From Candidatus Adiutrix sp. (GTDB taxonomy: Bacteria; Desulfobacterota; Desulfarculia; Adiutricales; Adiutricaceae): a stretch of DNA of 64,000 bases. The notes beneath the pieces are model-generated. The model was not told the DNA's origin. It did no database searches and saw only the letters and a list, made by a program, of their open reading frames with translations. Positions 1 through 49,937 of this stretch are shown one piece after another (the stretch's first letter is position 1; every line of letters begins with the position of its first letter). Position numbers and translations under genes: made by a program. The stretch is taken from contig JAISFR010000114.1 of NCBI GenBank assembly GCA_031263565.1, forward strand, positions 1 through 64,000, given 5' to 3'.

Positions 1-189
1 TTCGCCATTGATATTCCCGGCCATCTTCTTAAACAGCCGGATAGTCCGGCCGGCTCGTCTGAGAATGGCGGCTTTTTCAAAAATGATGATCCAGCAAAGC
101 AAAGAAGCCAGAAGAAGCAGCACCATAACGCCCTGCACCACCGGGTCGGCGTTGAGAAACATTTCGGTAACGGATAAATTGCCCGACAT
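1..189 (-). CDS. exbB: ExbB/TolQ-type proton-channel protein, N-terminal part
   Basis: The last 63 codons visible at the window edge read from an ATG at 189 with a GGAG ribosome-binding site about 8 bases upstream. The start MSGNLSVTEMFLNADPVVQG followed by a strongly hydrophobic stretch and then FEKAAILRR is the ExbB/TolQ/MotA pattern: a periplasmic N-terminal helix, transmembrane helix 1, then a basic cytoplasmic loop. In the family this protein forms the proton-conducting pentamer with ExbD (or TolR) that energises TonB (or TolA). It follows a TonB-dependent receptor operon on the same strand, which favours ExbB over TolQ. The C-terminal three-quarters lies outside the window, so the ExbB/TolQ choice is inference. 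Confidence 0.75.
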   Translation of the reverse strand, partial: MSGNLSVTEMFLNADPVVQGVMVLLLLASLLCWIIIFEKAAILRRAGRTIRLFKKMAGNINGE

Positions 190-304
190 TCAGGTCTCCA
201 GACAGGTAAAAGCCTGCGTTAATCAAGTTATGGTAAAAGACAGCGACGCGCTGAAGCGCTCCGTAGCGCACTTTTCTAAATATGTTTCAGATTGCGGCCA
301 CGGT

Positions 305-1066
305 TCAGCTTATGGCCGCGCCGAAGGCTACGGTGAATTGGGGCTGGGGCAAGACTTTGACCTCCATCAGCAGTTCATCTTCGAGAGCGTCAAGCAGGCC
401 GGGGTTCTGGGAAGGCCCGCCGTCAAGATAAATATCTCCGCCTGTTTGCTGGCGCCCCAGTAAATGGGTGATGCGCCTGGCGATGGAATAGTGAAGGCCC
501 TTGATGATGTTTTCTTTTCTGGCGCCTTTGGCCAAAAGAGAGACGATTTCGCTTTCCGCGAAAACAACGCAGGTGCTGTTGAGTTCCAGGGCCTCGTCGG
601 CCTTCAGGCTCAGCTCTCCAAAAAGCTCCAGGGGCGTGTCCAGAATGCGGGCCACCTGTTCAAAGAAGCGGCCGGTTCCCGCCGCGCATTTGTCGTTCAT
701 CCTGAAGTCGTAAATTTTTCCATTGTCGGACAAATTAATGACTTTCAAATCCTGGCCGCCGATATTGATGATGGTGCGGCATTTACCGCCGCTCAATATG
801 AACATGCCCTGGGCGTTGGCTGAAATTTCGTCAACCGTGTGCCCCACGGAGCTGAGCAACTTTTTGCCGTAGCCAGTCGCCGATACTTTTTCTATGTCGC
901 CTTCCGCAAGGCCAAGCTGTTCCAGAGCGTCTTTGACCAGGCCCATGGCCAAATGATCCTGCCCGGGGGCGGTGGCCACCTTTCGGCGCCAGGCCATGTC
1001 GTTACCATTGACCAGCACTGCCTTGATGGCCGTGCTGCCAAGATCAAGCCCGATTTTATAGCCCAT
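305..1066 (-). CDS. 2-hydroxyacyl-CoA dehydratase activator (BadF/BadG/BcrA/HgdC family ATPase)
   Basis: A 253-residue ASKHA-fold ATPase of usual length for HgdC-like archerase activators. The phosphate-1 motif GLDLGSTAIKAVLV is at residues 6-19, IGGQD is at 102-106, and the family signature MNDKCAAGTGRFFE is near 123-136. Two cysteines, C127 and C166, match the ligands for the [4Fe-4S] cluster shared between the two monomers. Such activators use ATP hydrolysis to inject a low-potential electron into a partner dehydratase or double-cubane reductase. That partner is encoded immediately upstream at 1114-2367. The ATG has a strong GGAGG ribosome-binding site. A membrane polyferredoxin two genes upstream is a plausible electron donor. 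The substrate is unknown. Confidence 0.9.
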   Translation of the reverse strand: MGYKIGLDLGSTAIKAVLVNGNDMAWRRKVATAPGQDHLAMGLVKDALEQLGLAEGDIEKVSATGYGKKLLSSVGHTVDEISANAQGMFILSGGKCRTIINIGGQDLKVINLSDNGKIYDFRMNDKCAAGTGRFFEQVARILDTPLELFGELSLKADEALELNSTCVVFAESEIVSLLAKGARKENIIKGLHYSIARRITHLLGRQQTGGDIYLDGGPSQNPGLLDALEDELLMEVKVLPQPQFTVAFGAAIS

Positions 1067-1113
1067 GTCTTACCTCCGGAAGGCGAAAAAACAATCAAGT
1101 TGAAAGGCGCGGC

Positions 1114-2367
1114 TCAGGAATCAAGGGTTCTCCGATAGGCTTCCAGCCTGGTCAGAAGATTCTGGCTGTCTTCTGAAGTGTAGTCGGTTTCGACTTTGAT
1201 GAACTTGAGCCCTTCATCCTTCAGCCGTCTTTCCAGGGTCATACTTTCCAGATCGAAGGGATGGCAGCCTTTGAGCACCTGAAAGACCACGCCCCGGTAA
1301 AGCGCTTTGTGCGAGGGAGAGATTATATTGTTGATTCGCCGGTCATTGTCGGCAAATGACGGACAGAGACAGCCCTGATGATAGCGCTGGGCCAGGGCTT
1401 TAAGCAGCCCATGCTCCGAAGGGTCATCAAAAAAGACCGCGCCGGGAAAAAGCCTTTCCGAGGAACAAAGATCATCCATGACCACTTTCAGGCCGGCATC
1501 TTCCAGCAGGTGCATTATTTTCAGGTTGGGAAAAAATACCGGTGAACCGGCCAGATACACTTCCGGTCCCGCAGCCGCCGGTCTTTCCCGGAACTTCGGC
1601 AGAGTGGCCTCCACCGCCGCCATCCATTTTTGAACATCGTCAAAGAAAAATGAATTGCTGATGACCACCGACCAGGGGCCGGACAGCCGGCCGGCGCGTT
1701 TCAGCATGGTCAGTTCGGTAAAGACCTGCCAGGCCTTTTGATAAACGGCCATGGATCGCGCCAGAGCCCCGCGGTCCGGTTTCTTTCGGCCGGTCAATTC
1801 GCCCAGAAAATTCCTGAGGCCGTAGATTTCCTCCAGCCAGCGCCCCTGGCTTTCGTCGCGGTCTTTCAGGTGGGGCAGTTCCAGCCGATGCACCGGCCGC
1901 CGGTTTTCCTGGCCGCAGTTGGCCATCATCTCCATGAACTTGACCGCCCAATCGCAGGTGGTGGGCAAGACCCAGGCGGCGAATCCGCCGGAATCTCCGG
2001 CTGAAGCCGAATCCAACTGAAGAAGCCCCAGGGCGGAGCGGAGCATCGGACACATGACCGCCGGCAACGACGGCGACGACAGCCTCGAGGCGGCTTGGGA
2101 GCCTCCGAACACCTTGAACGGATGGAGGCCATAGGCCTGAAAAAGTTCCAGCGGGGCCTGAAGGCACAGCAGAGCGGCCACCGGACGGCCCACCCGCCCG
2201 GCAATGACCGACGAGGACTGGCCGGCCGACAAAAGGTCCAAAAAATAATCAAGTTCCGGGAAATAATCTTTCCGCTGACGCAAAAGACTGATTTCCAGTT
2301 CCACTTCCTCGTCGCAGCGCGATCTTATTTTTTCCCTGATGCGGTTTTCACGGTCAGTTACGGTCAT
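1114..2367 (-). CDS. single-subunit 2-hydroxyacyl-CoA dehydratase / double-cubane-cluster-type reductase
   Basis: A 417-residue protein resembling HgdB/BcrB-C/YjiM. The candidate cluster cysteines are C106 (MCPML), C138 (PTTCDW), C301 (DDLCSSERLF), C333/C335 (GCLCPSF) and C368 (KGCHPFDLES). The last matches the C-terminal CDPH/CHPFD signature of the family. Classical 2-hydroxyacyl-CoA dehydratases have two different subunits, but only one is present here beside the activator, as in double-cubane cluster proteins that perform ATP-dependent reductions. The ATG overlaps the stop of the polyferredoxin gene by four bases (ATGA), so the two are probably translationally coupled. No acyl-CoA ligase or transferase is nearby, which argues against ordinary amino-acid fermentation. 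The actual substrate cannot be read from sequence. Confidence 0.8.
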   Translation of the reverse strand: MTVTDRENRIREKIRSRCDEEVELEISLLRQRKDYFPELDYFLDLLSAGQSSSVIAGRVGRPVAALLCLQAPLELFQAYGLHPFKVFGGSQAASRLSSPSLPAVMCPMLRSALGLLQLDSASAGDSGGFAAWVLPTTCDWAVKFMEMMANCGQENRRPVHRLELPHLKDRDESQGRWLEEIYGLRNFLGELTGRKKPDRGALARSMAVYQKAWQVFTELTMLKRAGRLSGPWSVVISNSFFFDDVQKWMAAVEATLPKFRERPAAAGPEVYLAGSPVFFPNLKIMHLLEDAGLKVVMDDLCSSERLFPGAVFFDDPSEHGLLKALAQRYHQGCLCPSFADNDRRINNIISPSHKALYRGVVFQVLKGCHPFDLESMTLERRLKDEGLKFIKVETDYTSEDSQNLLTRLEAYRRTLDS

Positions 2368-3335
2368 GGCTTCACTTTGGCGAATAATTTGGCGGCATAG
2401 CGCCTGGATGACGAGAAAATTTTAAAGGGGCCGAATTTTACGGCCAGGGAGCCGTCGGAGGCGCATGATTCCGCACAGTTGAAGCAGCCGGAACAATCGG
2501 GGTCATAGACGTTCGGCTTGATCCGCTCACGATAGGAGGTTTCATTGTCCATGCAACAGCCGCGGCGGCAATTTCCGCAGCCTTGGCAGGCTTCAGGCTC
2601 CTTGACTACTTTTAAAAGGTAAAACGGTTTCAGAAGATTAATCAGAGCCATCATCGGGCAAAGCAGGCAGAAAAACCGTTCCTTAAAAAACATGCCCGCG
2701 ACCATGCCGCCGGTAATGATCATGAGCAGAATGGAAAAAATCGACCGGGCGTCGCCATTCGCGGTAATCCCCAAATGGTGAAAGTCGCCGACGAAGATAG
2801 GCATGAGAGGCTTGGCCGGGCAGATGTTACAGAAGGCCAGGACAAAATCGCGGGGCAGCCAGCCCAGAGAGACCATAACCGGCATAGCTATCAGGTAGGC
2901 CAGAAGGACGTATTTCAATTTGGAGACGACCCGCTTATGGCGATTTGACAGTTCCGCCTCCCGCAGTTTGAGCGCTTGACGCAGGCGGGTCATCCAGTCC
3001 TGCAAAAGCCCGAATGGGCAGAGCCAGCCGCACCAGCTTTTGCCGAACAGAATCACCACTATGACAAAGATGCCGAAGCCGCTCAAGAAATAACTGAAAG
3101 TTTGCCAGACCTGCTCCCAGGAGCCGGCTCCGTCAATCAGTTGAAACAAAGGCAGGAAAAGCCAGCTCATGGCTCTCTGAAAAGCCATCAAATAGCATCC
3201 GCCTCCGCAACTGCCGATAAAAGGGCAGGAGAGACAGGGGATGGCGCTTCCCAGGGAGATTTTAAAATGCCCGCCGTAGGTCAGAACCGCGAAGGCCAGA
3301 TGCTGGGTGACCAGCCTGAATCTCTTGATGGTCAT
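2364..3335 (-). CDS. membrane-bound 4Fe-4S polyferredoxin (NapH/NosR/RdxA-like)
   Basis: A 323-residue integral membrane electron-transfer protein. It has the CGWLCPFG motif (C102, C106), a second and a third Cys-x-x-Cys-Pro pair (C169/C172 and C223/C226) between hydrophobic helices, and two C-terminal ferredoxin motifs (C250/253/256/260 and C281/284/287/291). This is the layout of NapH/NosR/CcoG relatives that pass electrons across or along the cytoplasmic membrane. Additional cysteines near residues 34-47 (CLSCPF, CGGGC) are a less usual N-terminal cluster site. The gene is coupled by an ATGA overlap to the reductase downstream, so the likely role is to feed electrons to the activator-reductase pair. 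That link is inference from position. Confidence 0.82.
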   Translation of the reverse strand: MTIKRFRLVTQHLAFAVLTYGGHFKISLGSAIPCLSCPFIGSCGGGCYLMAFQRAMSWLFLPLFQLIDGAGSWEQVWQTFSYFLSGFGIFVIVVILFGKSWCGWLCPFGLLQDWMTRLRQALKLREAELSNRHKRVVSKLKYVLLAYLIAMPVMVSLGWLPRDFVLAFCNICPAKPLMPIFVGDFHHLGITANGDARSIFSILLMIITGGMVAGMFFKERFFCLLCPMMALINLLKPFYLLKVVKEPEACQGCGNCRRGCCMDNETSYRERIKPNVYDPDCSGCFNCAESCASDGSLAVKFGPFKIFSSSRRYAAKLFAKVKP

Positions 3336-3345
3336 AACAGCCCGT

Positions 3346-4512
3346 TCAATTGAATTTAAATTTGCGGCGATGTCGCCGGATCATCAGGCCGACGATCAGA
3401 CAAGTTCCGCCGGCCAGGGCCAGGCCCTGAGGAATTTTAACGTTGCTCCAGCGGTTGCGGTTCACGGTCAGGCTGAAGCTCAGGCTGCCGCCTTCCGGGG
3501 TATTGACCACCATCACCACTTGACGGCCGCCCCGTCCGCCGCTTGCGCCTTCATTGATTTCGTCCTCGGCCGTATAAGTGAATTGGCCGCTCTTCACGCC
3601 AAAAGCCAGGGGCGTCGGCTGCTCTCCATAGCTGGCCTCAGTCGCCGCCAGGGCCGACAAGACGCCGGAAGCCTGGTCATTCGACCGGCCTGACAGCCCG
3701 AAATTCACGCTTTGCCCGACCGTCAGGCCGCGAAAAGGCAGGCTGTCCCCGCCGGCGGGCAGGACCAGGCGCGGCCACAAATTCGGGATTTCAGCGGGTC
3801 GATCCCCAAGACCTTCACTCCCCCCGGCCGGCCCGGCCACCAGACAGTTAATCTGGCTGTAAAATGACTGCCCGGCCAGGATAAAATGCGAAAATACCTC
3901 GGCCATACCGGGCGCCGGGGCCGCGAAATTTATCCGCCAGGTATCTCCATCCCGAAGCACCGCCGGCTGAAGCACCAGGGCTGAAGACGCGCCGTCTTGA
4001 GCGCCGGGAGTGAAGCGATAATAAACTTCCGGCGCTGAATCCGGGACTTCGGCCCCGGAGATTCCTAAATGAAGACTCTGGACCGCATTGGGGCGTCGGC
4101 CGCCCCCGCCGCCCCCGCCTCCGCCGCCCGGTCTTCCGCCGCCCCGGCCCCCGCCGCGCCCTTCCGGGCGCGGCCGCTCAGCGCTCTGACTGGGACTGCC
4201 GGGCTGAACCTCAGCTCGCGGGCGTTCCCCGCCCTGTTCCAGACCTTCGGGGCGGCCGCCGCCTCGCGGGCCTTCCCTGCCCTGTTCCGAGCCTTCAGGG
4301 CGGCCGACATCCGCGCTTCGCAGCGCCTGGCCAGCAGGGCCGCTGACCGGGCTGGCGTTAAGCGGCAGGGCTTTTACATACCACCACGCATATGGCCGGC
4401 CAAGGCCGGACATCTCGTCCGGACTGGCCAGGGCCGGGCAGGCGCCGGACAAAGCCAGAAAAAAAACCAGGCCTGATATGAACGGCCGGTTACAAGGCCA
4501 TTTTCCGAACAT
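3346..4512 (-). CDS. exported Gly/Pro/Arg-rich protein with C-terminal membrane anchor, function unknown
   Basis: A 388-residue protein. Residues 1-29 look like a signal peptide ending in a Sec signal-peptidase I site (PALA before SPDE). Residues 70-140 are low complexity, with GRPEG-type repeats and a run of glycines. About 145-350 is a beta-rich region, possibly related to DUF4198-like uptake accessory domains, but I cannot confirm a family. One hydrophobic helix near 368-384 is followed by RRHRRKF, predicting a C-terminal inner-membrane anchor with the body in the periplasm. It sits between the TonB receptor plus small repeat protein and the polyferredoxin, so it is probably a periplasmic component of the same import/reduction system. 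The start at 4512 is an ATG with only a weak ribosome-binding site. Confidence 0.6.
   Translation of the reverse strand: MFGKWPCNRPFISGLVFFLALSGACPALASPDEMSGLGRPYAWWYVKALPLNASPVSGPAGQALRSADVGRPEGSEQGREGPRGGGRPEGLEQGGERPRAEVQPGSPSQSAERPRPEGRGGGRGGGRPGGGGGGGGGGRRPNAVQSLHLGISGAEVPDSAPEVYYRFTPGAQDGASSALVLQPAVLRDGDTWRINFAAPAPGMAEVFSHFILAGQSFYSQINCLVAGPAGGSEGLGDRPAEIPNLWPRLVLPAGGDSLPFRGLTVGQSVNFGLSGRSNDQASGVLSALAATEASYGEQPTPLAFGVKSGQFTYTAEDEINEGASGGRGGRQVVMVVNTPEGGSLSFSLTVNRNRWSNVKIPQGLALAGGTCLIVGLMIRRHRRKFKFN
4093..4305 (-). repeat. low-complexity Gly/Arg/Pro-rich coding repeat
   Basis: This stretch encodes repeated GRPEG(L/S)EQG units, then an Arg/Gly-rich segment and a run of about nine glycines. 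It is a GC-only tract prone to slippage and lies inside the 388-residue exported protein. Confidence 0.65.
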
Positions 4513-4514
4513 TT

Positions 4515-4892
4515 TTACTTGTCTTTATCCTGGCGTTCGCCGTCCCGGTCCCCTTCAGGGCGCCCTTCGCCCTTGCGGTCGCCGTGCTTCATTCCCTCAG
4601 GGCGTCCTTCGCCTTTACGGTCGCCGCGTTTCAGACCTTCCGGCCGCCCTTCGCCTTGGCGGTGGCGCTCCCCGCTGCGCACCGCGGCGTCAGGGCCGCT
4701 TCTGTCCCGGTCGGCGCCGGTATCGGCCGCCGCGACTTTCAGCGGCGGTTCAGCGGGGAGTACGTCGATATCCGACCCGGCCAGGGCCGGACCGGCGCTG
4801 CCGAGGCTCAGAAATAAAATCGATCCCAGCACCAGCGAGCAGGGGCTAAAAAGCCCGGCCGCGCGTTTTTCAGTTTTTTGCATATCCTTCAT
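4515..4892 (-). CDS. small exported charged repeat protein (GDRKGEGRPEG repeats)
   Basis: About 126 residues if it starts at the ATG at 4892. A second ATG at 4883 is also possible, and the open frame extends to a TTG at 4976 just after the receptor stop. The 4892 or 4883 start gives a normal signal peptide: basic MQKTEKRA, hydrophobic core, then GPALA before GSDID. The mature part ends in tandem repeats of GDRKGEGRPEG with small changes (nucleotides 4551-4655) and a highly charged tail. It is likely a disordered periplasmic or surface protein. The repeat unit is shared with the next gene in the operon. No enzymatic motif is visible. Confidence 0.55.
   Translation of the reverse strand: MKDMQKTEKRAAGLFSPCSLVLGSILFLSLGSAGPALAGSDIDVLPAEPPLKVAAADTGADRDRSGPDAAVRSGERHRQGEGRPEGLKRGDRKGEGRPEGMKHGDRKGEGRPEGDRDGERQDKDK
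4551..4655 (-). repeat. in-frame tandem repeat encoding GEGRPEG-type units
   Basis: Three imperfect copies of a unit of about 36 bases encode GEGRPEG(L/M)K(R/H)GDRK within the small exported protein. The DNA copies differ at several third positions, so the repeat is not very recent. Confidence 0.7.
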
Positions 4893-4988
4893 CCAGGGTT
4901 CTGATTTGCCGCCGGTTGCACGGCGGACAGCATTGAAGAAGTGCCCGGTTGCTTCCGAGCTGTACCCGACAGGCAAGCGGACGGCCGC

Positions 4989-7283
4989 TCAGAATTCGTA
5001 AGTCACCCCCAGAACCACATGCCTGGCCGGCGCCGGCAGGTTGTTGCCGCCGCCGGTGCCCCTGTTGGCCGAGCGGGCGGGACTGTAATGCTCATTTAAA
5101 ATGTTGTTGAGGCTGAGGTTCACTGTGTAACGATGTTCCTCGCCGCCCTGAAGGCCCAGGTTAAGATTGTAGCATTGCCAGCCGGCATAAAATCCATTGC
5201 CGCCGCGGGCACTGGCCCCATCAGTGGTTTCAGCGCTCCAGTTCATATAAAGATCACTGTAGAAAAGCATATCGCCATTGCCGATAGAGTTGAGGTCCTT
5301 TTCATATCTGAGGCCGACTTTACCGGAATACGGAGGATTCCGGGTCTTGGAAGTGACCTCGCCCGTAGTGCTCCGGCCCAGGGTCTGCTTGCGATGCAGA
5401 TAAGTCACGCTGGTGTAAGGGGTAAGCCCCAGACTCTCGAACAGATAGGAAGCCGTCAGCTCCACCCCGGTGCTATTGGCCCAGCCGAGGTTGCAAAAGG
5501 TAGTACCGGCAATGCCGCTGGAGGGACATTGGACCCGTTCGATGAAATTTTTGGCCCGGGTATGGTAAACGGCCAGGTCCAGACTCAGAGCCTCGCCCGC
5601 GTAGCGGGCGCCGATCTCATAACTGGTGGATTCTTCGGGTTCCAAATCCGGGTTGGGGGTGATAGGTTCACCACCTCCAGCGCTGCCCGAGCCGGTATAC
5701 ATCTGAGCCACGGTGGGGTAACGGACGCCCTGCGACCATTGAGCCCTCAGCGCCAGATTGTCGGTGAGGTTATAGACCAGGCCCAGGCTGCCGACCAGGT
5801 CGGAAAATTTTCTACTGGGATTGCCAAAGTCTCTATAAGTGTTGCCGCGAACTGATTTCACCCGGCCTTCCTGCCAGGTCTGGCGCAGCCCCAGCACCGC
5901 CTTCCAGTCCGTGGCGAAATCCCATTCGTCCTGGAGGAAGACGCTGTAGTTTTTCAGATCGACATCGGCTGACCCTTCACCGTAATCCCGCGCGGGATCA
6001 TAGGTACTGGGAGCGCCTGGGTTTCCGACGGGCGGGGCCTTCTCGCCACGATTGCTGACGAGAACATCGTCGAAAGATGATTCAAAGCCGGCGGTCACAT
6101 AGTGTTTGCCGACTTGCCATTCGCCCTGGACGGTGGCGGTCAGTTGTTTCTGTGTGCTGGACAGATAGCGGTCAAAGTCGTAAGGGTTCACTAAAAGCTG
6201 GCCGCCAGGATTGGCGATTTGCGTCCAGCCGTAATCATTCTGTTCCCGATCAATCTTTTGATAGGAGGTGGTGACGGTCAGTTTGCGGAAATGTTCGCCA
6301 AGATCGTCGGCCATGAAAGTGGCCAAAATGGTGTCGCGATCATTAACCGGAGCCCAGCTTTTGCTCTCGGTAGTGGTTATCTGGGTGCCCTGGTTGTTGG
6401 CGCTCGCCGTTTCACTTTCCCTGGGGCGCGAGTTGAAGGACTGGCTCTCAAAATGGTCGGCCTGGAGGGTGAAGCTGTAGTTGTCCCAATCGTAACCTAC
6501 CTGACCGGCATAAGAACGGTTCTTGTACTCGGTGCCATAACCTTTGTCAACCAGATTGCCTTGGTTGTCAAGGCTGCCGCTGGGCACCTTCCTCATGCCG
6601 GCATTGGTCATGTTGCCGGAAAAGCGGTAATTGAAGCCGTTGTCCAGGCGGCCGAAAAGCGCGGCCGTGCCGTTTTTGCCGTCGGTGGAGGAATCATAGA
6701 TCGAACCGAGGCTGAAGCCCACCGGCTTGTCGCCGCCTTTTTTGGTGATGATGTTGACCACGCCGCCGATGGCCTCGGCCCCGTAAAGAACGCTGGCCGG
6801 GCCTTTGATGACCTCGATCCGCTCAATCTGGCTGGGGCTGATGTAGATGTTCGAATAGCCCTTGTTCTGGTCAACCTGCTTGACCCCGTTGACCAGAATC
6901 AAAGTCCGGCCGGTGGTTTCGCCGCGCAGCGAGATGCTGCTCATGCCCGCGTTGGGCACGTCGTTGATGTCCGGGGCCACGTCAATCCCGGGAATCCTGG
7001 TCAGGACGTCGGTGATGGTGTTGGCCGGCATGCGCTCGATCTCTTCGGCGGTGATGACGTTGACCGTCTGGGACAGCTCCATCAAGTCGCGTTCCACCCG
7101 GTTGGCGGTGACGTTAATGGTTTTCATCGCCACCGCCTGGTTCTCGGGGCCGGCCGTTTCTTCTTCCTCATCGGCTGCCCAGGCCGAACCGGTCAGAATT
7201 AAAGTCAGCGACAACATGCCGGCGCCAAAGCGTCTTAAGAAGCGCGGTGGCGGCTTAATCTCAAATTTTTCCATTTTTACCAT
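4989..7283 (-). CDS. TonB-dependent outer-membrane receptor
   Basis: A 764-residue protein with a signal peptide (residues about 1-36, ending SAWA). A short linker is followed by the TonB-dependent plug (about 50-170): TINVTA is a TonB-box-like stretch, and the plug has ITAEEIERMPANTITDVLTRIPGI and RIEVIKGPASVLYG, followed by IGGVVNIITK. A 22-strand-type beta-barrel ends in the aromatic terminal residue of HVVLGVTYEF. Such receptors import scarce ligands such as metal chelates, haem or corrinoids using TonB-ExbBD. Barrel sequence does not let me name the ligand. The ATG has an AGGAG site only 2 bases away, and a second in-frame ATG at 7274 has better spacing. It is the first gene of the operon running to the ExbB-like gene at the window edge. 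Confidence 0.93.
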   Translation of the reverse strand: MVKMEKFEIKPPPRFLRRFGAGMLSLTLILTGSAWAADEEEETAGPENQAVAMKTINVTANRVERDLMELSQTVNVITAEEIERMPANTITDVLTRIPGIDVAPDINDVPNAGMSSISLRGETTGRTLILVNGVKQVDQNKGYSNIYISPSQIERIEVIKGPASVLYGAEAIGGVVNIITKKGGDKPVGFSLGSIYDSSTDGKNGTAALFGRLDNGFNYRFSGNMTNAGMRKVPSGSLDNQGNLVDKGYGTEYKNRSYAGQVGYDWDNYSFTLQADHFESQSFNSRPRESETASANNQGTQITTTESKSWAPVNDRDTILATFMADDLGEHFRKLTVTTSYQKIDREQNDYGWTQIANPGGQLLVNPYDFDRYLSSTQKQLTATVQGEWQVGKHYVTAGFESSFDDVLVSNRGEKAPPVGNPGAPSTYDPARDYGEGSADVDLKNYSVFLQDEWDFATDWKAVLGLRQTWQEGRVKSVRGNTYRDFGNPSRKFSDLVGSLGLVYNLTDNLALRAQWSQGVRYPTVAQMYTGSGSAGGGEPITPNPDLEPEESTSYEIGARYAGEALSLDLAVYHTRAKNFIERVQCPSSGIAGTTFCNLGWANSTGVELTASYLFESLGLTPYTSVTYLHRKQTLGRSTTGEVTSKTRNPPYSGKVGLRYEKDLNSIGNGDMLFYSDLYMNWSAETTDGASARGGNGFYAGWQCYNLNLGLQGGEEHRYTVNLSLNNILNEHYSPARSANRGTGGGNNLPAPARHVVLGVTYEF

Positions 7284-7346
7284 TTCTCCTCGTTAAAAAC
7301 TGTCAGGAAATCGGTCATCCCCTAATTTTGGCGCAAAAATACCCTC

Positions 7347-7381
7347 CCGCCGTAGGCGGATTCACTGCCTTCCGGGCCGCC
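7347..7381 (-). promoter_or_regulatory. candidate attenuator/riboswitch-like leader of the TonB receptor operon
   Basis: On the minus strand GGCGG at 7377-7381 can pair with CCGCC at 7355-7359. The same CCGCC can instead pair with GGCGG at 7347-7351 across a 3-base loop. The two hairpins are mutually exclusive, and the second is followed 7 bases later by a run of five T. The segment GGAAGGCAGTGAATCC (7358-7373) faintly recalls the cobalamin-riboswitch core, but the canonical CCCGCCACTG and AGCCAGGAGACC boxes are not clear. A regulated leader is plausible; ligand identity is speculative. Confidence 0.35.
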
Positions 7382-7414
7382 GATACAGCACAGGCGCTAT
7401 GAATTTGCTTATCT

Positions 7415-7437
7415 TTGCTAGTGATACTCAATAGCAA
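7415..7437. promoter_or_regulatory. Fur-like inverted repeat upstream of the receptor operon
   Basis: TTGCTA and TAGCAA form a perfect inverted repeat 11 bases apart. On the minus strand it reads TTGCTATTGAGTATCACTAGCAA. The internal ATTGAGTATCA matches 10 of 11 positions of ATTGAGAATCA, a form common in Fur-type iron boxes. Its position, about 130 bases upstream of the receptor start, suits iron or metal control of TonB-dependent uptake. Confidence 0.35.
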
Positions 7438-7571
7438 AACAGCCGGAATAATGCCAGTTAAATCTTTTGTTAACTATAAAACCTGATGGTAATTGAGGAC
7501 TATCTCTTTAAGGCCATAACATCACCGCCGGCGCCGGCAAACGATTGCCCTGCAAAGTAACTGAGTCGCAA

Positions 7572-7600
7572 TTGCATTTTACTGGATTTTGGCCTATAGT
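7572..7600 (+). promoter_or_regulatory. candidate sigma-70 promoter of the two-component genes
   Basis: TTGCAT (7572-7577) and TATAGT (7595-7600) are separated by exactly 17 bases. The -10 is a 5/6 match and the -35 only 3/6. The predicted transcript starts about 170 bases before the kinase ATG. Confidence 0.4.
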
Positions 7601-7775
7601 AAAAAACAGCCGGTAGCGAAAAAGTTTGGCGAGGCCAGGCCCGCTGAAAAATTGCCATTTGGCCTGTTCAAGGCGAGGTTACGATTCAGCGGCGTCCCGG
7701 TCGCTGTAATATGAAAAAACGCCGATGCCCGGGCGGGCACATCCCCGGTCGAGCTTGGCGTCAGGCTGGTTTTCG

Positions 7776-9227
7776 ATGACTCTCAACCGTCGTCTCCATT
7801 TGTCCAATATTTTGAACTTTATAATTATCGTGGCCCTGTTGGCTGGCCTGGCCATGATAGGCCGGGCGTCCTTAATCATATTTGACATGGACGGCTATGT
7901 TGATTACGGCTTTATCAGAGCCAAAGTGCTTGAGGTGAGCAAATGGGCGGACACGCTGACCGGTCCGGAAAATGAAAAAATTTTGATTGAAACGGCGGCT
8001 TCGTTCAACAGCAGATACTTTGCCAAAAGTGGTTTTGGAGTTTTCGTTTATCGGGACGGCCGCAAATTAGCCGGCCCTGAGGCTGACATAATGGACAGCA
8101 TTCCCCACCCCTTGCTGGAAGCGGAAGACGACCGGCTGATGGTGTTGGATTCGAATGTGTATTTTTCCGCGCTCAGGGGCGATTGCCGCCTGATACTCGT
8201 AAACGACCGATTCTCCATCAAGCACTCGAACGAGGTGACGGACCATGCTTTCATGCTCTTCGCCCTCCTCTTTATAGTTTTGACCCTGACCGTCACTTTG
8301 AGCGGGCTGCTGACGCGGCGGATGATCATCAGGCCCATAATGGCCGCGATAAATGTTTTGAGCCGCGGAGTCAGCCAGATACGGGAAGGGAATCTGGCCT
8401 ATAAACTGAATTACGATGTCAAAGATGAGTTTTATGACATTTGCCGCGTCTTTAATGAAATGGCCGACCGCCTCTTGCAGTCGGACGGGCAGAAGCGGCG
8501 GGACGAAGAAAGCCGGCGCTGCCTGATAGCCGGCATTTCCCACGATCTCCGCAGCCCCCTGGCTTCCATTAAAGCCTATGCGGAAGGACTGCTTGACGGC
8601 GCCGCGGAAACGGAAGAGGAGAAAGAAGAGTATTTGCGGGTCATCGTGACCAGGTCCGATAACATGGAAAAAATAGTCCAACAGTTATTCATGTTTTCAC
8701 AACTCGACCTGTATAATTATCCCATAAGCTTGAAACTGTGCGATTTTGACGAAGAACTGGAAAAATTAATCTATCGGGAGCGGGACGCCTATGCGCTGGA
8801 CGGCCTGGGCCTGTCGCTGAACCTGGCGGCAAAACCGGCTAAGGTCAATCTGGATTTGTCTCTTTTTCAGATCGTCTTGAGCAATATTTTCGGCAACAGC
8901 CTGAAATATGGCGACCAGGCCCGATCTTTGATGAAGATAAGCAGCCGGGTCGAGTCGGCCACGGTCCATTTGGATTTGACCGACAACGGACCTGGCGTGC
9001 CGGAGGAAAAACTGGGCCAGTTGTTTGACATGTTTTTCCGGGTTGACGACGACGGGCTCCGGACCGGCCATGGCCTGGGCCTGGCGATCAGCGCGAAAAT
9101 CATCAGCCGCCTGGGCGGGACCATTGCCGCCAGGAACGCGCCGGAAGGCGGTCTGTGTATCGAGATAAAACTGCCGATAATCTGGAATGGAGAGGACGAT
9201 GAACGGCAAAGTTTTAATAATAGATGA
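7776..9227 (+). CDS. membrane sensor histidine kinase (HAMP, HisKA, HATPase)
   Basis: From the ATG at 7776 the protein has 483 residues. Transmembrane helix 1 is near residues 11-38, followed by a periplasmic sensor region of about 120 residues and transmembrane helix 2 near 158-180. A HAMP linker comes next. The phosphoacceptor H-box ISHDLRSPLASIKAYAEGLL has His256. N-box NIFGNSLKYG and G boxes DNGPGVPEE and GHGLGLAISAKI are intact, so the enzyme should be active. An upstream in-frame ATG at 7725 would add 17 non-conserved residues before the first helix, so I prefer 7776. It overlaps the response regulator gene by 29 bases. Its neighbours, the receptor operon on one side and the MacAB efflux operon on the other, are both possible targets. 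Confidence 0.93.
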   Translation: MTLNRRLHLSNILNFIIIVALLAGLAMIGRASLIIFDMDGYVDYGFIRAKVLEVSKWADTLTGPENEKILIETAASFNSRYFAKSGFGVFVYRDGRKLAGPEADIMDSIPHPLLEAEDDRLMVLDSNVYFSALRGDCRLILVNDRFSIKHSNEVTDHAFMLFALLFIVLTLTVTLSGLLTRRMIIRPIMAAINVLSRGVSQIREGNLAYKLNYDVKDEFYDICRVFNEMADRLLQSDGQKRRDEESRRCLIAGISHDLRSPLASIKAYAEGLLDGAAETEEEKEEYLRVIVTRSDNMEKIVQQLFMFSQLDLYNYPISLKLCDFDEELEKLIYRERDAYALDGLGLSLNLAAKPAKVNLDLSLFQIVLSNIFGNSLKYGDQARSLMKISSRVESATVHLDLTDNGPGVPEEKLGQLFDMFFRVDDDGLRTGHGLGLAISAKIISRLGGTIAARNAPEGGLCIEIKLPIIWNGEDDERQSFNNR

Positions 9228-9897
9228 CGACCCCTATATTTCCAAAATTCAGCGGACCTATCTGGAAAAGGCCGGGTTTGAAGTTTCAACGGCTTTGGAC
9301 GGTGAAAGCGGCTATGCCCTGGCGCTCGGCGAACAGCCGAAGATGGTCATTTTGGATTTGAATCTCCCGGGGGCGACCGGTTTTGAAATTTGCCGGCGGA
9401 TGAGGGAAAAACTGGACATGCCCATAATCATTGTCACCAGTCGGACTGATGAGGCCCTAAAAATCAAGGGGCTGGAACTGGGGGCGGTCGATTACGTCAC
9501 CAAGCCCTTCTCTACTCCGGAACTTGTGGCCAGGGTCAAAGCCCAGTTGGCCCAGGGCGACCGCTTGGCCAGATCAATAAATCCTGAAAGTCGGTCGGAG
9601 AGAAAATTCGGACGAATCAGGATCATGCTTGACAATCGCGAACTTTATATCGGCGGCCGAAAAATAAAGCTGCCCCTGAAAGAATATGAATTACTCTGCC
9701 ATTTATCGGCCAATCCCAACCTGGACTTCAGCACCGAGCAGCTTTATGAAGCCGTCTGGGGCAATGACCGCCAGGGCGACCTGAAAACCGTGGCGGTCCA
9801 CATCAAGCGTCTTCGCGACAAAGTTGAGGGCGATCCTTCCAAACCCCGCTATATTCAGACTATTCAAGGCCGCGTCTATCGCTTTGTGCCTGATTGA
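9199..9897 (+). CDS. OmpR/PhoB-family response regulator
   Basis: A 232-residue protein from the ATG at 9199, chosen because GGAGAGG lies 5-10 bases upstream. Another ATG at 9187 is in frame. The receiver domain has the acidic pair D9/D10 in LIIDDDPY, phosphoacceptor D53 in VILDLNLPG, and the conserved Lys in VDYVTKPF. The C-terminal winged-helix domain has the typical RR family sequence KLPLKEYELLCHL followed by VHIKRLRDKVE and IQTIQGRVYRFV. It is co-transcribed with the kinase. The 3' end overlaps the 3' end of the convergent efflux gene by 38 bases. Confidence 0.95.
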   Translation: MNGKVLIIDDDPYISKIQRTYLEKAGFEVSTALDGESGYALALGEQPKMVILDLNLPGATGFEICRRMREKLDMPIIIVTSRTDEALKIKGLELGAVDYVTKPFSTPELVARVKAQLAQGDRLARSINPESRSERKFGRIRIMLDNRELYIGGRKIKLPLKEYELLCHLSANPNLDFSTEQLYEAVWGNDRQGDLKTVAVHIKRLRDKVEGDPSKPRYIQTIQGRVYRFVPD

Positions 9898-11314
9898 TCC
9901 CCTCCCTTGAACCGGCCCTGTCGTTCTGACTGGACGGCACGGGAACCGTTCGCCAGCGCCCGGCCATGGCCTTATGCACCATATTTTCATAACGCAAGGC
10001 CTGGTAAAGGGAATCCAGAGCGGACAGACGGGAACTGTTGGCGGCATTGATGGCCGACAGCCAATCCGACAGTTCGGCGGCTCCGCTGTCATAGCGATCC
10101 CGCTGGTAAACGGCAACGCGCAGGTCTTCGGCGTACTTGCGGCGGATATTGTCCAGATTGCGCCGGGCCTGGGTATAGGCGAAGTAATAAGTGTCCACTT
10201 CGTTGAGGGCCGTGGTCAGGCTTTGCTCGAAAGCCAGCCGGGCGCTTTCAAAATCCAATTCTGAAATCCTGAGATTGTTCAGAACCCGGTTCCAGTCCAG
10301 GAAAGGCAGGCTGAGGGAGGCGCCGGCGCTGGCGACGGGATTGTTGAGGGCGGTGCCGATGGAATTCGAAGACGAGGCCAGGGCCGAACTGAGGCTGATG
10401 GTGGGCAGCCAGCCCTTTTCAGCCACTTCCACGTTTTTAAAGGCCTTTTCCAGGCGAAATTCGGCCGCCCGCAGATCGGGCCGGTTGGCCAGCACCGCCA
10501 GGGGCACGTCAAGGTCAAGGCCCGGCAATTTGAGCCTGGCCAAAGTGGGGGGGCCGGAAAAAGCCAGGGGCGTGTCCGGCGGAAGGTTTAAGAGATTGCG
10601 CAGAGTCTGTTCGGCGTTTTTGTGCTGGGTCTCCAGGTCGGTGAGGCTGTTTTCGGCCGACAGCACTGACTGGCGGGCCTGGGCCTTTTCCAGGGCGGCC
10701 ACTTTGCCGCTTTCGTATTTGGCCTTGACCATGTTTTCGACCAGCCGAAGATTGGCCAGATTTTTCCGGCTGGATTCGAGGGCGTCACCCAGATAGGCCA
10801 GGTTGTAATAGGCGTCCACAGTGCTGTTGACAAGGGCCAGGCGGCTGTTTTCCATATCTTCGACCGTGGCCAGATGTTCCCAGGCGGAGGCGCTGGCCGA
10901 AGCGGCCACTTTTCGCCACAAATCGAGTTCGTAGCTGAGGCTTGAATTTCCCCCGAAGGAACGGCTGGCGGGGCCGCCTTCATTGATGTTTTTACGGGTC
11001 GAGGACTCCAGGCCGCCGGAGAATTTGGGAAAAAGATCCAGGCCGATGAGCCGGGCCTGATAAAGAGCCCGGTTGACGCTGACGGCGGCCTTGGCCAGAT
11101 CGAGGTTGCGGGCCAGGGCCAGTTCCACCGTCTCGTTCAACTGGGGATCGTCATAGATTTTCCACCATTCGGGCTCCAGTTGATAACGGGCCTTGACTTC
11201 GGCGTCATAGGCCAGGCGTTCCGCAAGGTTCTGCTCCGGCCGGCTGACCCGGGCGCAGCCGACGGCCCCGAAGATCGCCAGGGCAATTAGGGTTATGGCC
11301 GTCAACGGCCTCAT
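9860..11314 (-). CDS. TolC/NodT-family outer-membrane efflux lipoprotein
   Basis: A 484-residue protein from the ATG at 11314, which has GGAGG five bases upstream. An ATG at 11335 overlaps the macB stop and is the alternative. Residues 1-20 form a lipoprotein-like signal ending GAVGC, so the mature N-terminus is probably a lipidated cysteine. Two repeats of the outer-membrane efflux domain follow, with the features LARNLDLAKAAVSVNRAL, LPPDTPLAF and VLANRPDLRAAEFRLEKA (the RPD motif of OM efflux channels). It forms the outer-membrane duct for the MacA-MacB pump encoded just upstream. It is convergent with the response regulator. Confidence 0.92.
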   Translation of the reverse strand: MRPLTAITLIALAIFGAVGCARVSRPEQNLAERLAYDAEVKARYQLEPEWWKIYDDPQLNETVELALARNLDLAKAAVSVNRALYQARLIGLDLFPKFSGGLESSTRKNINEGGPASRSFGGNSSLSYELDLWRKVAASASASAWEHLATVEDMENSRLALVNSTVDAYYNLAYLGDALESSRKNLANLRLVENMVKAKYESGKVAALEKAQARQSVLSAENSLTDLETQHKNAEQTLRNLLNLPPDTPLAFSGPPTLARLKLPGLDLDVPLAVLANRPDLRAAEFRLEKAFKNVEVAEKGWLPTISLSSALASSSNSIGTALNNPVASAGASLSLPFLDWNRVLNNLRISELDFESARLAFEQSLTTALNEVDTYYFAYTQARRNLDNIRRKYAEDLRVAVYQRDRYDSGAAELSDWLSAINAANSSRLSALDSLYQALRYENMVHKAMAGRWRTVPVPSSQNDRAGSREGINQAQSDRRGLE

Positions 11315-11327
11315 GCCGGCCTCCGGT

Positions 11328-13271
11328 TTATTCATAAGCCAGGGCGTCAATGGGATTCAGCATCGAAGCGTTGCGGGCCGGCATATAGCCGAAGCCTATC
11401 CCGATCAGGCTGGAACAGCCCAGCGCCAGAAAGACGGAAGCGGTGGAGAAGGACATGGTGAAATCGCTGGAGAAGCTGTTGAAGCCCAGACCGATGGCCC
11501 CGGCGAAGACGATGCCGGTCAGCCCGCCGAAAACGCACAGGAGCACGGCTTCGATGAGGAACTGCTCCAGAATGTTGAAACGCCTGGCCCCGATGGCCAT
11601 GCGCACGCCGATTTCCCTGGTGCGTTCGGTAACCGAGACCAGCATGATGTTCATCACCCCGATGCCGCCCACCACCAGCGAGATCAGGGCGATGGAGGAA
11701 ATCAGGATGGTCATGGTCTGGCTGGTGCTGGCGATGGTCTGCTTGATGGTGTCGGTGTTCTGGGTATAAAAATCTTTTCGGCCGTGCTTGACGGTCAGGA
11801 GGTTGGTCAGGTTCTTCTCCGCCACCTGGGAACTGATCTGGTCGTTGACTTTGACGATGATGGAGCTGATATGGCGGTCGCCGCTGATCTTGCTCATCAC
11901 CGCGGTATAAGGGGCCCAAAGGCTCAATTGATCGGAGGGGCCGAACATGGCGGTCTGGGGCTGAGTGACGCCGATGATGGTCAGCGGCTGTCGCCGGAAG
12001 ATGATGACCTGGCCCAGGGGATCCTGGCCGTAGGGAAAGAGCTTGTTTCTGGTGTTGGGATCGATGACCACCACCGAAGCCACGTCGTTGACGTCGGCCT
12101 CGTTGAAAAGACGGCCTTCCGCGATTCTCAGTCCCCGCACATCGAAGAACTGCTCGCCCACCCCGTTGAGCGAGGCCGTCAAGGTCTGGTTGCCGAAGGC
12201 CAGATTGCCGTTGGTGGAAACGCTGGGAGTGGAGCTGTCCAGATAGCTTTGCTGGGCCAGAATGTCCGAGTCGGACACCGTCAGCGTCCGCACCCGGGCG
12301 CTGCGGCGGTCGCCGAAGCCGGTGCCGGGATAGATGCCGATGGTATTGGTGCCCATGGAACTGATGTTGGCCATGATGCGTTCCTGGGAACCCCGGCCCA
12401 GAGCGACGACCGAGACCACCGAGGCGATGCCGATAATGATGCCCAGCATGGTCAGGAGCGACCGCAGCTTATGGGCCATGATGGCCTGGATCGACATTTT
12501 GAAGGCTTCAAGGAACTGGTCGCGATAAAAGGCGAAGGGATTGACGCCGTTTTCCACCTGGCTTTCATAGTCGGCCGCGCTGAAAGCCTGGTCCCGCCTC
12601 CGGTCGGAAATTACGAGGCCGTCCTTCAGCTCGATGATCCGGTGGGCATGGGCGGCGATGCTGTGGTCGTGGGTGACCAGGATGATGGTGTGCCCGTCCC
12701 GGTGCAGAGTCTCCAGAATACCCATGACCATCTCGCCGCTTTTGGAGTCAAGGGCGCCGGTGAGTTCATCGGCCAGAATTATATCGCCGCCGTTCATCAG
12801 GGCCCGGGCGATGCTGACCCGCTGCTGCTGACCGCCGGAAAGCTGGTAGGGAAAATTTTTAAACTTGTCGTCCAGGCCCAGGCGGGTCAGGAGTTCTCTG
12901 GCCCTTTCCATCCGGGTCAGATGGCTCAGGCCGGCGTAGACCGCCGGCAGGGCGACATTATCCAGGGCGGTCAGGCTGGGCAAAAGGTTGTAACGCTGGA
13001 AGATGAAGCCCAATTTGCGGCCTCTGACCCAGGCCAGAGCGTTGGCCGACAGACCGCTGGTTTCGATGCCGTCCACTTTATAAGTGCCTGAGCTGGGAAC
13101 GTCCAGGCAGCCGATGGTATTCATCAAGGTGGTTTTGCCCGAACCGGACTGCCCGATGATGGCCACAAAATCGCCGCGCTTGATTTCCAGGTCGATATCC
13201 CTGAGCACGTGAATGCGGCTTTCCCCCTCGCCAAAAAATTTGTTTACCTTATGTAATTCAATAATGTTCAT
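11328..13271 (-). CDS. macB: MacB-type ABC efflux transporter (ATPase-permease fusion)
   Basis: A 647-residue protein from the ATG at 13271, seven bases after the macA stop. The N-terminal ABC ATPase has Walker A GQSGSGKTT, signature LSGGQQQRVSIARAL, Walker B and D-loop ILADELTGALD, and H-loop THDHS. A linker leads to four transmembrane helices with a large periplasmic MacB-core domain, and a C-terminal FtsX permease segment with ERTREIGVRMAIGARR. This is the standard MacB layout and length. With MacA and a TolC-like channel it exports macrolides, peptides, lipids or haem-like compounds from the periplasm in known systems; the substrate here is unknown. Confidence 0.95.
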   Translation of the reverse strand: MNIIELHKVNKFFGEGESRIHVLRDIDLEIKRGDFVAIIGQSGSGKTTLMNTIGCLDVPSSGTYKVDGIETSGLSANALAWVRGRKLGFIFQRYNLLPSLTALDNVALPAVYAGLSHLTRMERARELLTRLGLDDKFKNFPYQLSGGQQQRVSIARALMNGGDIILADELTGALDSKSGEMVMGILETLHRDGHTIILVTHDHSIAAHAHRIIELKDGLVISDRRRDQAFSAADYESQVENGVNPFAFYRDQFLEAFKMSIQAIMAHKLRSLLTMLGIIIGIASVVSVVALGRGSQERIMANISSMGTNTIGIYPGTGFGDRRSARVRTLTVSDSDILAQQSYLDSSTPSVSTNGNLAFGNQTLTASLNGVGEQFFDVRGLRIAEGRLFNEADVNDVASVVVIDPNTRNKLFPYGQDPLGQVIIFRRQPLTIIGVTQPQTAMFGPSDQLSLWAPYTAVMSKISGDRHISSIIVKVNDQISSQVAEKNLTNLLTVKHGRKDFYTQNTDTIKQTIASTSQTMTILISSIALISLVVGGIGVMNIMLVSVTERTREIGVRMAIGARRFNILEQFLIEAVLLCVFGGLTGIVFAGAIGLGFNSFSSDFTMSFSTASVFLALGCSSLIGIGFGYMPARNASMLNPIDALAYE

Positions 13272-13278
13272 GATCGGC

Positions 13279-14700
13279 TCATAACCTGGGGCCGCCGGCG
13301 CCGGCGCCGCGGAATTGAGTGCTTCTGCCGGCCTGAGCCAATTCCGAGGTCGACATCTGGGCGGAAACCACTTCATCGCCTTCTTTAAGGCCGGCGACCA
13401 CCTCCGTGTTCATGCTGTCGAAAATTCCGGTCTCTATCTCTCTTTCCACCGGCCGGCCTTTTTCCATAACGCTGACCAGGGCCCTGCCGCCAGTCAGGGG
13501 CGGGTTGAATCCGGCTGGCGCCGGCCCCTCGCCACGCCGCCCTTGACCCGCGCCGTCCAGGTCACGCTGGCCGCCACGCCGCCCCTGACCGGCCCCTTCC
13601 TGGCCCGGCCCGCCGCCACGCCGGTTCTGAGCTTCTCCGTTCATAGCTTGCCCGCCGCCACGCCGGTCCTGGGCACTGCTTCCGGCCTGGCCCGAACCCT
13701 GGCCAGGCCCGCCGACCGGCCGAAGGGCGATGGTCGGCACGATCAGAACGTCACGGGCTTCGGCAATGGTGATGGTGTTCTGGGTGGTCATGCCGATGCG
13801 CAGGATACCGCGCTCGTTGGGGACGACGAATTTTCCATAATAATATATGGCCGTCCCGGCGTCGGTGGCGCCGGTATACTTGCCGTCGGAAAGGGTGATC
13901 AAACCTGGGTCGACCATATGCAATTCTCCGCTGAAGACGCGGTTCGGCTCGGACAGGATGCTATAGGTCACCCTCATGCCGGGTTGGACCTTGGTGACAT
14001 CACCTTCGGATATCTGCATACGGATTTCCATCTGGCTGAGGTCGGCCAGATGGACGATGGTGGGCGCGGCCTGGTTGGCGTTGACGGTCTGGCCTTCCTC
14101 CACCGGTATGGAAACTACCGTGCCGTCGAGAGGAGCGGAGATGCGGGTATAACCCAGATTGGTTTCAGCGGTGTTGACCGAGATGACGGTCTGGGCGATA
14201 AGCGAGGTTGTTTCATCCACCGCCGCCCGAGCCGAAGCCAGGGTATTTTCGGCATTTTCCAGACTTTCATCGGAGGCCGCATCGCGTTTTTTCAGCTTCA
14301 AGGCTCTTTCGTATTGTTGTTCAGCTACTTTCAAGGCTATTTTGCGGGAAACCAGTTGGGCTTCATAGGTTTTGAGCTTGGCCTTGTTGATTTCCAGATC
14401 ATTGCGCTGGGTGGTCGAATCAATTTCGGCGATCAGTTCGCCTTTTTTAACCTGCTGACCGAGAGTGACGGCCAGAGTCTCAATCTGCCCGGAAACCTGA
14501 GCGCCGACGTTGACCAGTTGCACCGCCGCCACTTCGCCGGTGGCGTTGACGGTTCTGACGATGTTGCCCCGGCGAACCTGTTCGGTCAGGTAGCTGACCT
14601 TTTCCGCACCGTTGGAGCAGCTTCTGAAAATAACCAGAAGCAGAAGCGCGGCCAGGGCGATCATCATTTTTTTTCCAAAAATAATTTCAGACGCGGACAT
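13279..14700 (-). CDS. macA: MacA-type periplasmic adaptor with Arg/Gly-rich insertion
   Basis: A 473-residue HlyD/MacA-family membrane-fusion protein. The start at the ATG 14700 is the best conventional choice; a GTG at 14712 and an ATG at 14667 are alternatives, and none has a clear ribosome-binding site. It has an N-terminal membrane anchor (MMIALAALLLLVIF), a lipoyl half-motif VNVGAQVSGQIETL, a coiled-coil hairpin (about 103-185), a second lipoyl half ISAPLDGTVVSIPVEEGQTV, and the beta-barrel. An insertion of about 70 residues rich in GQGRRGG repeats interrupts the C-terminal membrane-proximal region. It bridges MacB and the TolC-like duct. Confidence 0.92.
   Translation of the reverse strand: MSASEIIFGKKMMIALAALLLLVIFRSCSNGAEKVSYLTEQVRRGNIVRTVNATGEVAAVQLVNVGAQVSGQIETLAVTLGQQVKKGELIAEIDSTTQRNDLEINKAKLKTYEAQLVSRKIALKVAEQQYERALKLKKRDAASDESLENAENTLASARAAVDETTSLIAQTVISVNTAETNLGYTRISAPLDGTVVSIPVEEGQTVNANQAAPTIVHLADLSQMEIRMQISEGDVTKVQPGMRVTYSILSEPNRVFSGELHMVDPGLITLSDGKYTGATDAGTAIYYYGKFVVPNERGILRIGMTTQNTITIAEARDVLIVPTIALRPVGGPGQGSGQAGSSAQDRRGGGQAMNGEAQNRRGGGPGQEGAGQGRRGGQRDLDGAGQGRRGEGPAPAGFNPPLTGGRALVSVMEKGRPVEREIETGIFDSMNTEVVAGLKEGDEVVSAQMSTSELAQAGRSTQFRGAGAGGPRL
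13498..13716 (-). repeat. Arg/Gly-rich RRGG-repeat insertion in the MacA adaptor
   Basis: Several imperfect repeats of GGGQ/GQGRRGG occupy the region between the conserved adaptor segment DVLIVPTIALRPV and the C-terminal domain ALVSVMEKGRPVE. Ordinary MacA proteins have a short loop here. Confidence 0.65.
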
Positions 14701-15178
14701 AGGCAAAAACACTCGCTGTCAGTGTCGATCGGTAAGCCCGGACGGGAAGATTGGGGCACAGTATGTCGCGCCCTAATATTTGTTCAGGCCAAAGTGCTGT
14801 GTGATGGGTTCTGCAAATGAAAGGCCTGATTCCGCATTAACAGCGGTTAATTGTCATCGTTTTTTAAAGGCGGGGATTGCTTGATAAATTTTGGGGATTG
14901 TTTACCCGGCCTCCAAAATACGCCCTGAGGCCCGGCAGACCTTGATGGATATTTTTTGCCGCAGGCGAGTAAATATTGCCCGGCTGTCGTCATCGTCAGA
15001 GCTCTGGTCCGCAAGCGTTTATTTAGCCGGGCGGCAGGGGATTTTTCAATGAGGCTATTGGCAGGGGATTTTTTGGGCGCTGATAATATACCTATAGGGG
15101 GTAGTGCTTACGGACGCTATGGCCGGATCATTCGCCGAGCGCCGGGAAAAGCTGAATACCGGGCTCTGTTGATCACCC
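14701..15178. other. intergenic region upstream of macA
   Basis: About 480 bases with no convincing gene. It contains a perfect TTAACAGCGGTTAA inverted repeat (14837-14850) that could be an operator for macAB-tolC, and a plus-strand promoter-like pair TTGGCA (15058-15063), 18 bases, GATAAT (15082-15087). It also has a C-rich/G-rich TACCTATAGGGGGTA stretch near 15089-15103. No clear minus-strand promoter for macA was found. Confidence 0.6.
14837..14850. promoter_or_regulatory. perfect inverted repeat, candidate operator for macA
   Basis: TTAAC-AGCG-GTTAA is a perfect inverted repeat about 140 bases upstream of the macA start. Nothing shows which regulator binds it; the adjacent OmpR-type regulator usually prefers direct repeats. 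Confidence 0.3.
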
Positions 15179-15973: not shown

Positions 15974-16011
15974 AAACCCTCCCGGCTTCAGCGGCCGCGG
16001 TGACCGGCCTT

Positions 16012-16036
16012 GAGGCTGTCGCCGGGCGACAGCCTC
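16012..16036. terminator. strong 11-bp hairpin after pilY1
   Basis: GAGGCTGTCGC and GCGACAGCCTC form a perfect 11-bp stem with a 3-base loop. It lies between the pilY1 stop and the zinc-ribbon gene. There is no T-run on either side, so it may be an RNA-stability or processing hairpin rather than a classical intrinsic terminator. Confidence 0.45.
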
Positions 16037-16053
16037 GATAATGGGAAGTCAGA

Positions 16054-42855: not shown

Positions 42856-42876
42856 AACCGACCCTAAATTTATATC

Positions 42877-49917: not shown

Positions 49918-49937
49918 GTCTCTACCTTGTCGTTGTT

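Follow-up and report, generated by a model that had tools for sequence, protein, structure and literature searches.

A conserved gene core linking a membrane polyferredoxin and a putative ATP-driven double-cubane-type reductase to TonB-dependent uptake in anaerobic bacteria

The first 64,000 nucleotides of contig JAISFR010000114.1 from Candidatus Adiutrix sp. (assembly GCA_031263565.1; hereafter the window) open within an operon that codes for a TonB-dependent receptor, a membrane polyferredoxin, a double-cubane-type reductase and the ATPase activator of that reductase. Here we show that three of these genes, preceded by a gene for an exported, membrane-anchored protein that we call X, make up a four-gene core (X, polyferredoxin, reductase, activator) that recurs in at least eight phyla, and we find strong genomic evidence that in most lineages this core mainly serves corrinoid uptake or salvage. 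The copy in the window probably handles a different imported compound, be it another metal complex, a metal chelate or a tetrapyrrole. We propose, with a probability of roughly 50%, that the cassette is a TonB-linked reduction system in which electrons raised in energy by ATP would pass via the polyferredoxin to an imported complex in the periplasm, mainly a corrinoid, with another ligand in the branch to which the window copy belongs.

The operon lies on the minus strand and begins with a TonB-dependent outer-membrane receptor of 764 residues (4989..7283; plug domain PF07715, 98 bits, and barrel domain PF00593, 167 bits, both above the Pfam cut-offs), followed by an exported protein of 153 residues with RPEG repeats (4515..4976; a start at the ATG at 4892 yields a plain signal peptide), protein X (388 residues, 3346..4512), the polyferredoxin (323 residues, 2364..3335), the reductase, which is a single HGD-D subunit of 417 residues (1114..2367; PF06050, 204 bits), an activator of the acyl-CoA dehydratase activase type (253 residues, 305..1066; PF01869, 172 bits; TIGR00241, 221 bits against a cut-off of 125) and the first 63 residues of an ExbB/TolQ-type proton channel (1..189; TIGR02796, 1.3e-11; TIGR02797, 3.5e-9). 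The polyferredoxin and reductase genes overlap by exactly 4 bases (2364-2367). Gene calls and domain matches thus bear out the consecutive one-strand operon with a four-base overlap that had been described in an earlier note on this DNA, with a partial ExbB gene. Since window base 1 is also the first base of the contig (68 kb, in a genome of 2.97 Mb), the operon is cut off there and its completeness is not visible in the window. The TolQ model scores slightly above the ExbB model on the 63-residue fragment, the closest relative of which is the ExbB protein (55% identity) of the nearest complete cassette, L083/L061. There, receptor, X, polyferredoxin, reductase, activator, ExbB, ExbD, TonB, MacA, MacB and TolC follow one another on one strand, and genes for ExbD and TonB are to be expected beyond the contig end of the window operon. 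The two exported repeat proteins of the earlier note were both called, and fared differently: the 388-residue protein represents the conserved family X, while none of the other loci examined holds a relative of the 153-residue protein, which places it outside the conserved core. RPEG/Gly-Arg-rich repeats are common to both (window 3346-4976), and among the X sequences read, long Gly- or Ala-rich inserts occur only in termite-gut copies.

A search of 60 related genomes brought out a distinct reductase clade, whose members share at least 38% identity with the window protein, against at most 31% for other HGD-D proteins. X, polyferredoxin and activator hold the same order around this clade. A polyferredoxin profile and the reductase clade were both present in 19 of 40 genomes and both absent from the other 21, a joint pattern which argues that their link is not due to chance. 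A scan of GTDB genomes yielded 196 relatives, and the best 80 of these 196 loci were compared. Among these 80, the four-gene core recurs in gut and sediment anaerobes that include termite-gut Deltaproteobacteria, Synergistaceae, Accumulibacter-like bacteria, Acidobacteriota, Spirochaetes, Planctomycetes, Omnitrophota, Lentisphaerota and Desulfobacterales, together with the isolates Sporomusa ovata DSM 2662, Sporomusa sp. KB1 and Desulfospira joergensenii DSM 10085. Where the contig was long enough, X was found upstream in 65 of 70 loci, the polyferredoxin in 64 of 77 and the activator downstream in 66 of 76, X keeping its place upstream of the polyferredoxin across relatives. In 31 of the 61 testable loci, spread over many phyla, a receptor gene is found in the same orientation and no more than 6 kb away, and the genome under study has only 8 plug-domain receptors, two of which adjoin two of its three cassettes. 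The association of receptor and reductase on which the earlier note had hinged its proposal is therefore a conserved one: the same gene order is found in other genomes, the core persists in different phyla, and receptors follow the branching of the reductases in matching trees. The neighbours of the cassette are all missing around a control HGD-D pair on contig C91 of the same genome. No paper describing the cassette was found in a literature search, many subscription papers being beyond its reach.

The closest solved structure to the window reductase is that of the DCCP family of double-cubane proteins (6eno/7yyl, E 5e-33). Six cysteines of the window protein (C68, C106, C138, C301, C335 and C368), invariant in 19 relatives, align with cysteines of 6eno/7yyl which we take to be the double-cubane ligands in 6ENO. 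The presence of one HGD-D gene followed by an activator gene, not an alpha/beta pair, is likewise the DCCP arrangement, and the two cluster cysteines per activator monomer (C127 and C166) are retained by 95% or more of the 68 relatives compared.

The polyferredoxin matches Fer4_5 and, weakly, NapH (57 bits, below the TIGR02163 cut-off of 213), and its 18 cysteines are invariant in 18 relatives. Hydropathy and charge place six of these on the predicted periplasmic side (C34, C37, C43, C47, C169 and C172) and 12 on the cytosolic side, and an AlphaFold 2 model has four membrane helices with cysteines on both faces. X has a signal peptide, a Gly/Arg-rich insert, two beta-sandwich domains and a C-terminal membrane anchor, as judged from hydropathy, which peaks at residues 11-29 and 360-378, and from an AlphaFold 2 model in which the beta domains mostly exceed a predicted local distance difference test score (pLDDT) of 90. 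It has no Pfam family, one of 41 members touching DUF4198 (4.8e-5). Fold searches gave no functional hint for either protein, returning ferredoxin domains only for the polyferredoxin and generic immunoglobulin-like sandwiches only for X (best Z 4.9).

The link to corrinoids comes from most of the relatives. Outside the window branch, an Rfam cobalamin riboswitch stands directly upstream of X or of a gene in the same operon in 28 of the 37 loci with enough upstream sequence; over all scanned loci, riboswitches were found in 28 of 48 outside and 0 of 19 inside the window branch (Fisher p 3.5e-6). These counts are Rfam matches only, while the riboswitch labels on the reductase tree combine Rfam with a motif scan, so that a few of the 31 (such as L112, flagged by the B12-box motif and unconfirmed by Rfam) are less certain. 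Other matches of the motif scan, such as that at position 3907 of L079, were rejected as false positives. CbiZ fused to a BtuF-like domain, CobN, DUF2149, DUF2162 and ExbB adjoin cassettes in the riboswitch lineages (one neighbourhood label, SLB519, mixes CbiZ and CobN), CbiK and CbiZ adjoin the Sporomusa ovata cassette, and CbiD and CbiG are also among the neighbours. Corrin biosynthesis genes lie in L131, and CobB/CbiA-type amidases in L119 and L145. The match to vitamin B12 receptors spans the whole of the receptors beside riboswitch-controlled copies, with 418 bits in L098 (below the TIGR01779 cut-off of 599.7) and 229 bits in L099. On the strength of riboswitches, CbiZ/CobN/Cbi neighbours and B12-type receptors, corrinoid is the indicated ligand class of the majority. 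Of the ligands that had been listed in the earlier note, corrinoid is thus strongly supported for most of the family, the window copy itself being without a riboswitch. What DCCPs do in the cell was described as unknown in 2025 (PMC11971306). A part in the uptake or salvage of corrinoids is a candidate for this role, and the riboswitch-controlled cassettes of the cultured Sporomusa ovata and Sporomusa sp. KB1 make it a testable question whether corrinoids are reduced in the process.

Several of these loci hold further genes of interest. In Sporomusa ovata DSM 2662 (L093, 3382-7114), a cobalamin riboswitch and then a nitrogenase-like set (one NifH-like protein and two that resemble component 1) immediately precede the X-polyferredoxin-DCCP-activator genes, so that two ATP-driven reductases stand side by side in a B12-controlled region. 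Fusions of the CbiZ corrinoid amidohydrolase to a BtuF-like domain are found in L136 (6577-8589), L128 (11091-12707) and L100 (1022-3079), and the evident signal peptide of the L128 fusion suggests periplasmic corrinoid remodelling. In Sporomusa sp. KB1 (L099), a RACo-like reductive activator lies behind a cobalamin riboswitch (2904-4973), and HlyD and an AcrB-type pump follow the B12-type receptor (13664-16854), efflux genes trailing receptors here too.

The window branch is split from the riboswitch side in both the reductase tree (100/98) and the receptor tree (100/97). It consists of termite-gut Deltaproteobacteria only, and the window's receptor lineage is specific to it. Cobalamin riboswitches were found in 0 of its 12 loci with enough upstream sequence, and a search of window 1-16000 gave no match, even with E values of up to 10 admitted. 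In this branch the cassette has an ExbB and a TonB of its own and is accompanied by DUF4198 proteins or by MacAB-TolC. A paralogous cassette on contig C95 of the same genome has a cobalamin riboswitch 79 bases before X, so that one organism has one cassette under corrinoid control and two that are controlled otherwise. The simplest reading of this pattern seems to be a change of ligand in the window branch; alternatively, the branch may have dropped riboswitch control with its ligand unchanged. A second riboswitch-free termite-gut group (L110, L130, L132, L141 and L154) falls within the riboswitch side of the reductase tree, so the cassette and riboswitch control do not always go together.

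Upstream of the window operon lies a divergent two-component system, possibly its regulator, comprising a sensor histidine kinase (7725..9227, plus strand; HAMP, HisKA, HATPase_c) and an OmpR-type response regulator (9187..9897, plus strand; PF00072, PF00486). Beyond it, on the minus strand, are genes for a MacA-type membrane fusion protein (13279..14712; HlyD_D23, HlyD_3), a MacB-type ABC efflux pump (11328..13376; MacB_PCD, ABC_tran, FtsX) and a TolC-type outer membrane efflux protein (9860..11350; PF02321, 140 bits). These three proteins, like ExbB and the receptor, are each closest to the products of the L083/L061 cassette, MacB and MacA being 74% and 71% identical to their L083 counterparts, and relatives of the window TolC are found inside the L083, L087 and L092 cassettes. 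The MacB label used in comparing neighbourhoods is loose (the L091 match is an ABC exporter), and Pfam confirmed MacB in the window and in L083. A scan for a Fur box upstream of the operon gave a match of 14/19 at 7417, which is not convincing. Further along the window (35890-50627, minus strand) is a cluster resembling polyunsaturated fatty acid and polyketide synthases, with ketosynthase, FabA-type dehydratase, acyltransferase-like and phosphopantetheinyl transferase genes.

In the mechanism that we favour, the receptor would bring a large metal complex into the periplasm, while the cytosolic activator would hydrolyse ATP and drive low-potential electrons onto the double-cubane cluster. The reductase would hand these electrons to the polyferredoxin for passage outward across the inner membrane, where a complex held near X would receive them, lowering the oxidation state of its metal, and would then be remodelled, released or taken further. 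The ancestral or main ligand would be a corrinoid; the termite-gut branch of the window would have lost, or never had, riboswitch control and would use another receptor, together with a MacA-MacB-TolC pump that would return the emptied chelator. From family membership we infer that the ligand would be reduced at the cost of ATP. The outward direction of electron flow is suggested by the composition of the core, which includes a protein located in the periplasm and an Fe-S membrane protein with two faces but lacks an inner-membrane permease, and by the double cubane of the related benzoyl-CoA reductase subunit BzdN, which is buried, accessible only via a narrow channel and thought to store and relay electrons (PMC11971306). 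More tentatively, we suggest that the cassette may act as an ATP-powered transmembrane injector, delivering very-low-potential electrons to the periplasm for TonB-imported corrinoids and, in the window branch, for a metal complex of another kind. If so, DCCP-type enzymes would have their first physiological role, and corrinoid salvage would have gained a new step. If the proposal is true, corrinoid or metal uptake in anaerobes includes a reduction paid for with ATP, possibly in the periplasm, where no ATP exists.

Several observations weigh against this proposal. At 189 bits, the window reductase falls below the cut-off of 350 of the NCBIfam DCCP equivalog NF040772 and is thus placed in a DCCP-like subfamily of its own, outside the curated equivalog. 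An adjacent activator is absent in some window-branch loci (such as L085, L094 and L152; the reductase of L068, which is the L094 locus again, keeps its cysteines). The predicted outward direction rests on hydropathy, positive charge and a middling polyferredoxin model (pLDDT 73). The root of the reductase tree is unsure owing to a very long outgroup branch, so the change between branches may have run in the reverse direction. Finally, the best family model of the window receptor is TonB-hemin (TIGR01785, 225 bits, cut-off 316.85 not reached), on which B12-linked receptors score 176-201, likewise below the cut-off.

The main rival, which we consider possible though doubtful, has the polyferredoxin collecting electrons and feeding them inward to activator and reductase, which would use them in the cytosol to convert imported cob(III/II)alamin into cob(I)alamin, ready for adenosylation or for reactivating enzymes. 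Activators of this family usually take electrons from ferredoxins, and riboswitch control, the corrin-metabolism neighbours and the RACo-like activator in the Sporomusa sp. KB1 regulon would all suit such a route. However, an anchored periplasmic X and six invariant cysteines on the predicted periplasmic side would then be unneeded, the core is without an inner-membrane permease, and a corrinoid could hardly reach the double cubane directly, given the buried cluster and narrow channel of BzdN (PMC11971306).

It is less likely still that the window branch serves anaerobic heme use, the receptor importing heme and the cassette supplying electrons for iron removal in the manner of HmuS, whose activity is NADH-dependent (PMC12583661). 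The TonB-hemin match and the CobN/HmuS-type chelatase, DUF2149, DUF2162 and ExbB genes that adjoin the cassette in riboswitch lineages would fit, but because B12-linked receptors score nearly as high, the match is not diagnostic and was dropped as proof of a heme ligand. On the vitamin B12 receptor model TIGR01779 the window receptor reaches 126 bits, also below the cut-off. Furthermore, no CobN/HmuS gene was seen adjoining window-branch cassettes, and DUF4198 and MacAB-TolC suit a metal chelate equally well. Mere adjacency of a receptor and a general redox module, already disfavoured, is very improbable: the contig end inside the operon prevents the transcript from being traced, and L105, a window-branch relative with room for a receptor, shows none, but the receptors adjoining two of the three cassettes in this genome, their recurrence on the same strand in about half of the testable loci and the matching trees speak against it.

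Among known systems, the DCCP and DCCP reductase of Carboxydothermus hydrogenoformans (6ENO, 7YYL) resemble the window genes in their single HGD-D subunit, six aligned cluster cysteines and separate ATPase activator, whereas the window reductase is distant in sequence and tied to X, a polyferredoxin and TonB import. With vitamin B12 uptake (BtuB, TonB, CbiZ salvage and cobalamin riboswitches), the riboswitch-controlled relatives share BtuB-like receptors, CbiZ and CobN, in contrast to the riboswitch-free window copy. To our knowledge, the known B12 uptake systems have no ATP-driven low-potential reductase or polyferredoxin. The HmuYRSTUV system for anaerobic extraction of heme iron (PMC12583661) requires a reductant, and its TonB receptor, ExbB-type, DUF2149 and CobN-like chelatase genes have counterparts adjoining relatives of the cassette; however, no DCCP module is described there, and the riboswitches of the relatives indicate corrinoid. 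In the pyoverdine system (FpvGHJK-FpvCDEF and PvdRT-OpmQ), the iron undergoes reduction in the periplasm and PvdRT-OpmQ exports the emptied siderophore (PMC6954188). The combination of a TonB receptor, a reductase in the inner membrane that works on the periplasmic side and a tripartite ATP-driven pump for chelator recycling is like that proposed for the cassette. A comparable MacAB-TolC-type pump is present in the window locus and has relatives inside the L083, L087 and L092 cassettes; no FpvG-type reductase or FpvCDEF was noticed among the annotated neighbours, though no search was aimed at these genes, and the electrons of the window cassette would instead come from an ATP-driven Fe-S system. 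The polyferredoxin itself is like the NapH/NosR-type membrane ferredoxins in having four membrane helices, CX3CP motifs and a cytosolic 2[4Fe-4S] ferredoxin domain, but differs from them in carrying invariant cysteines on the predicted periplasmic face as well, and in having an ATP-driven reductase as its genetic partner.

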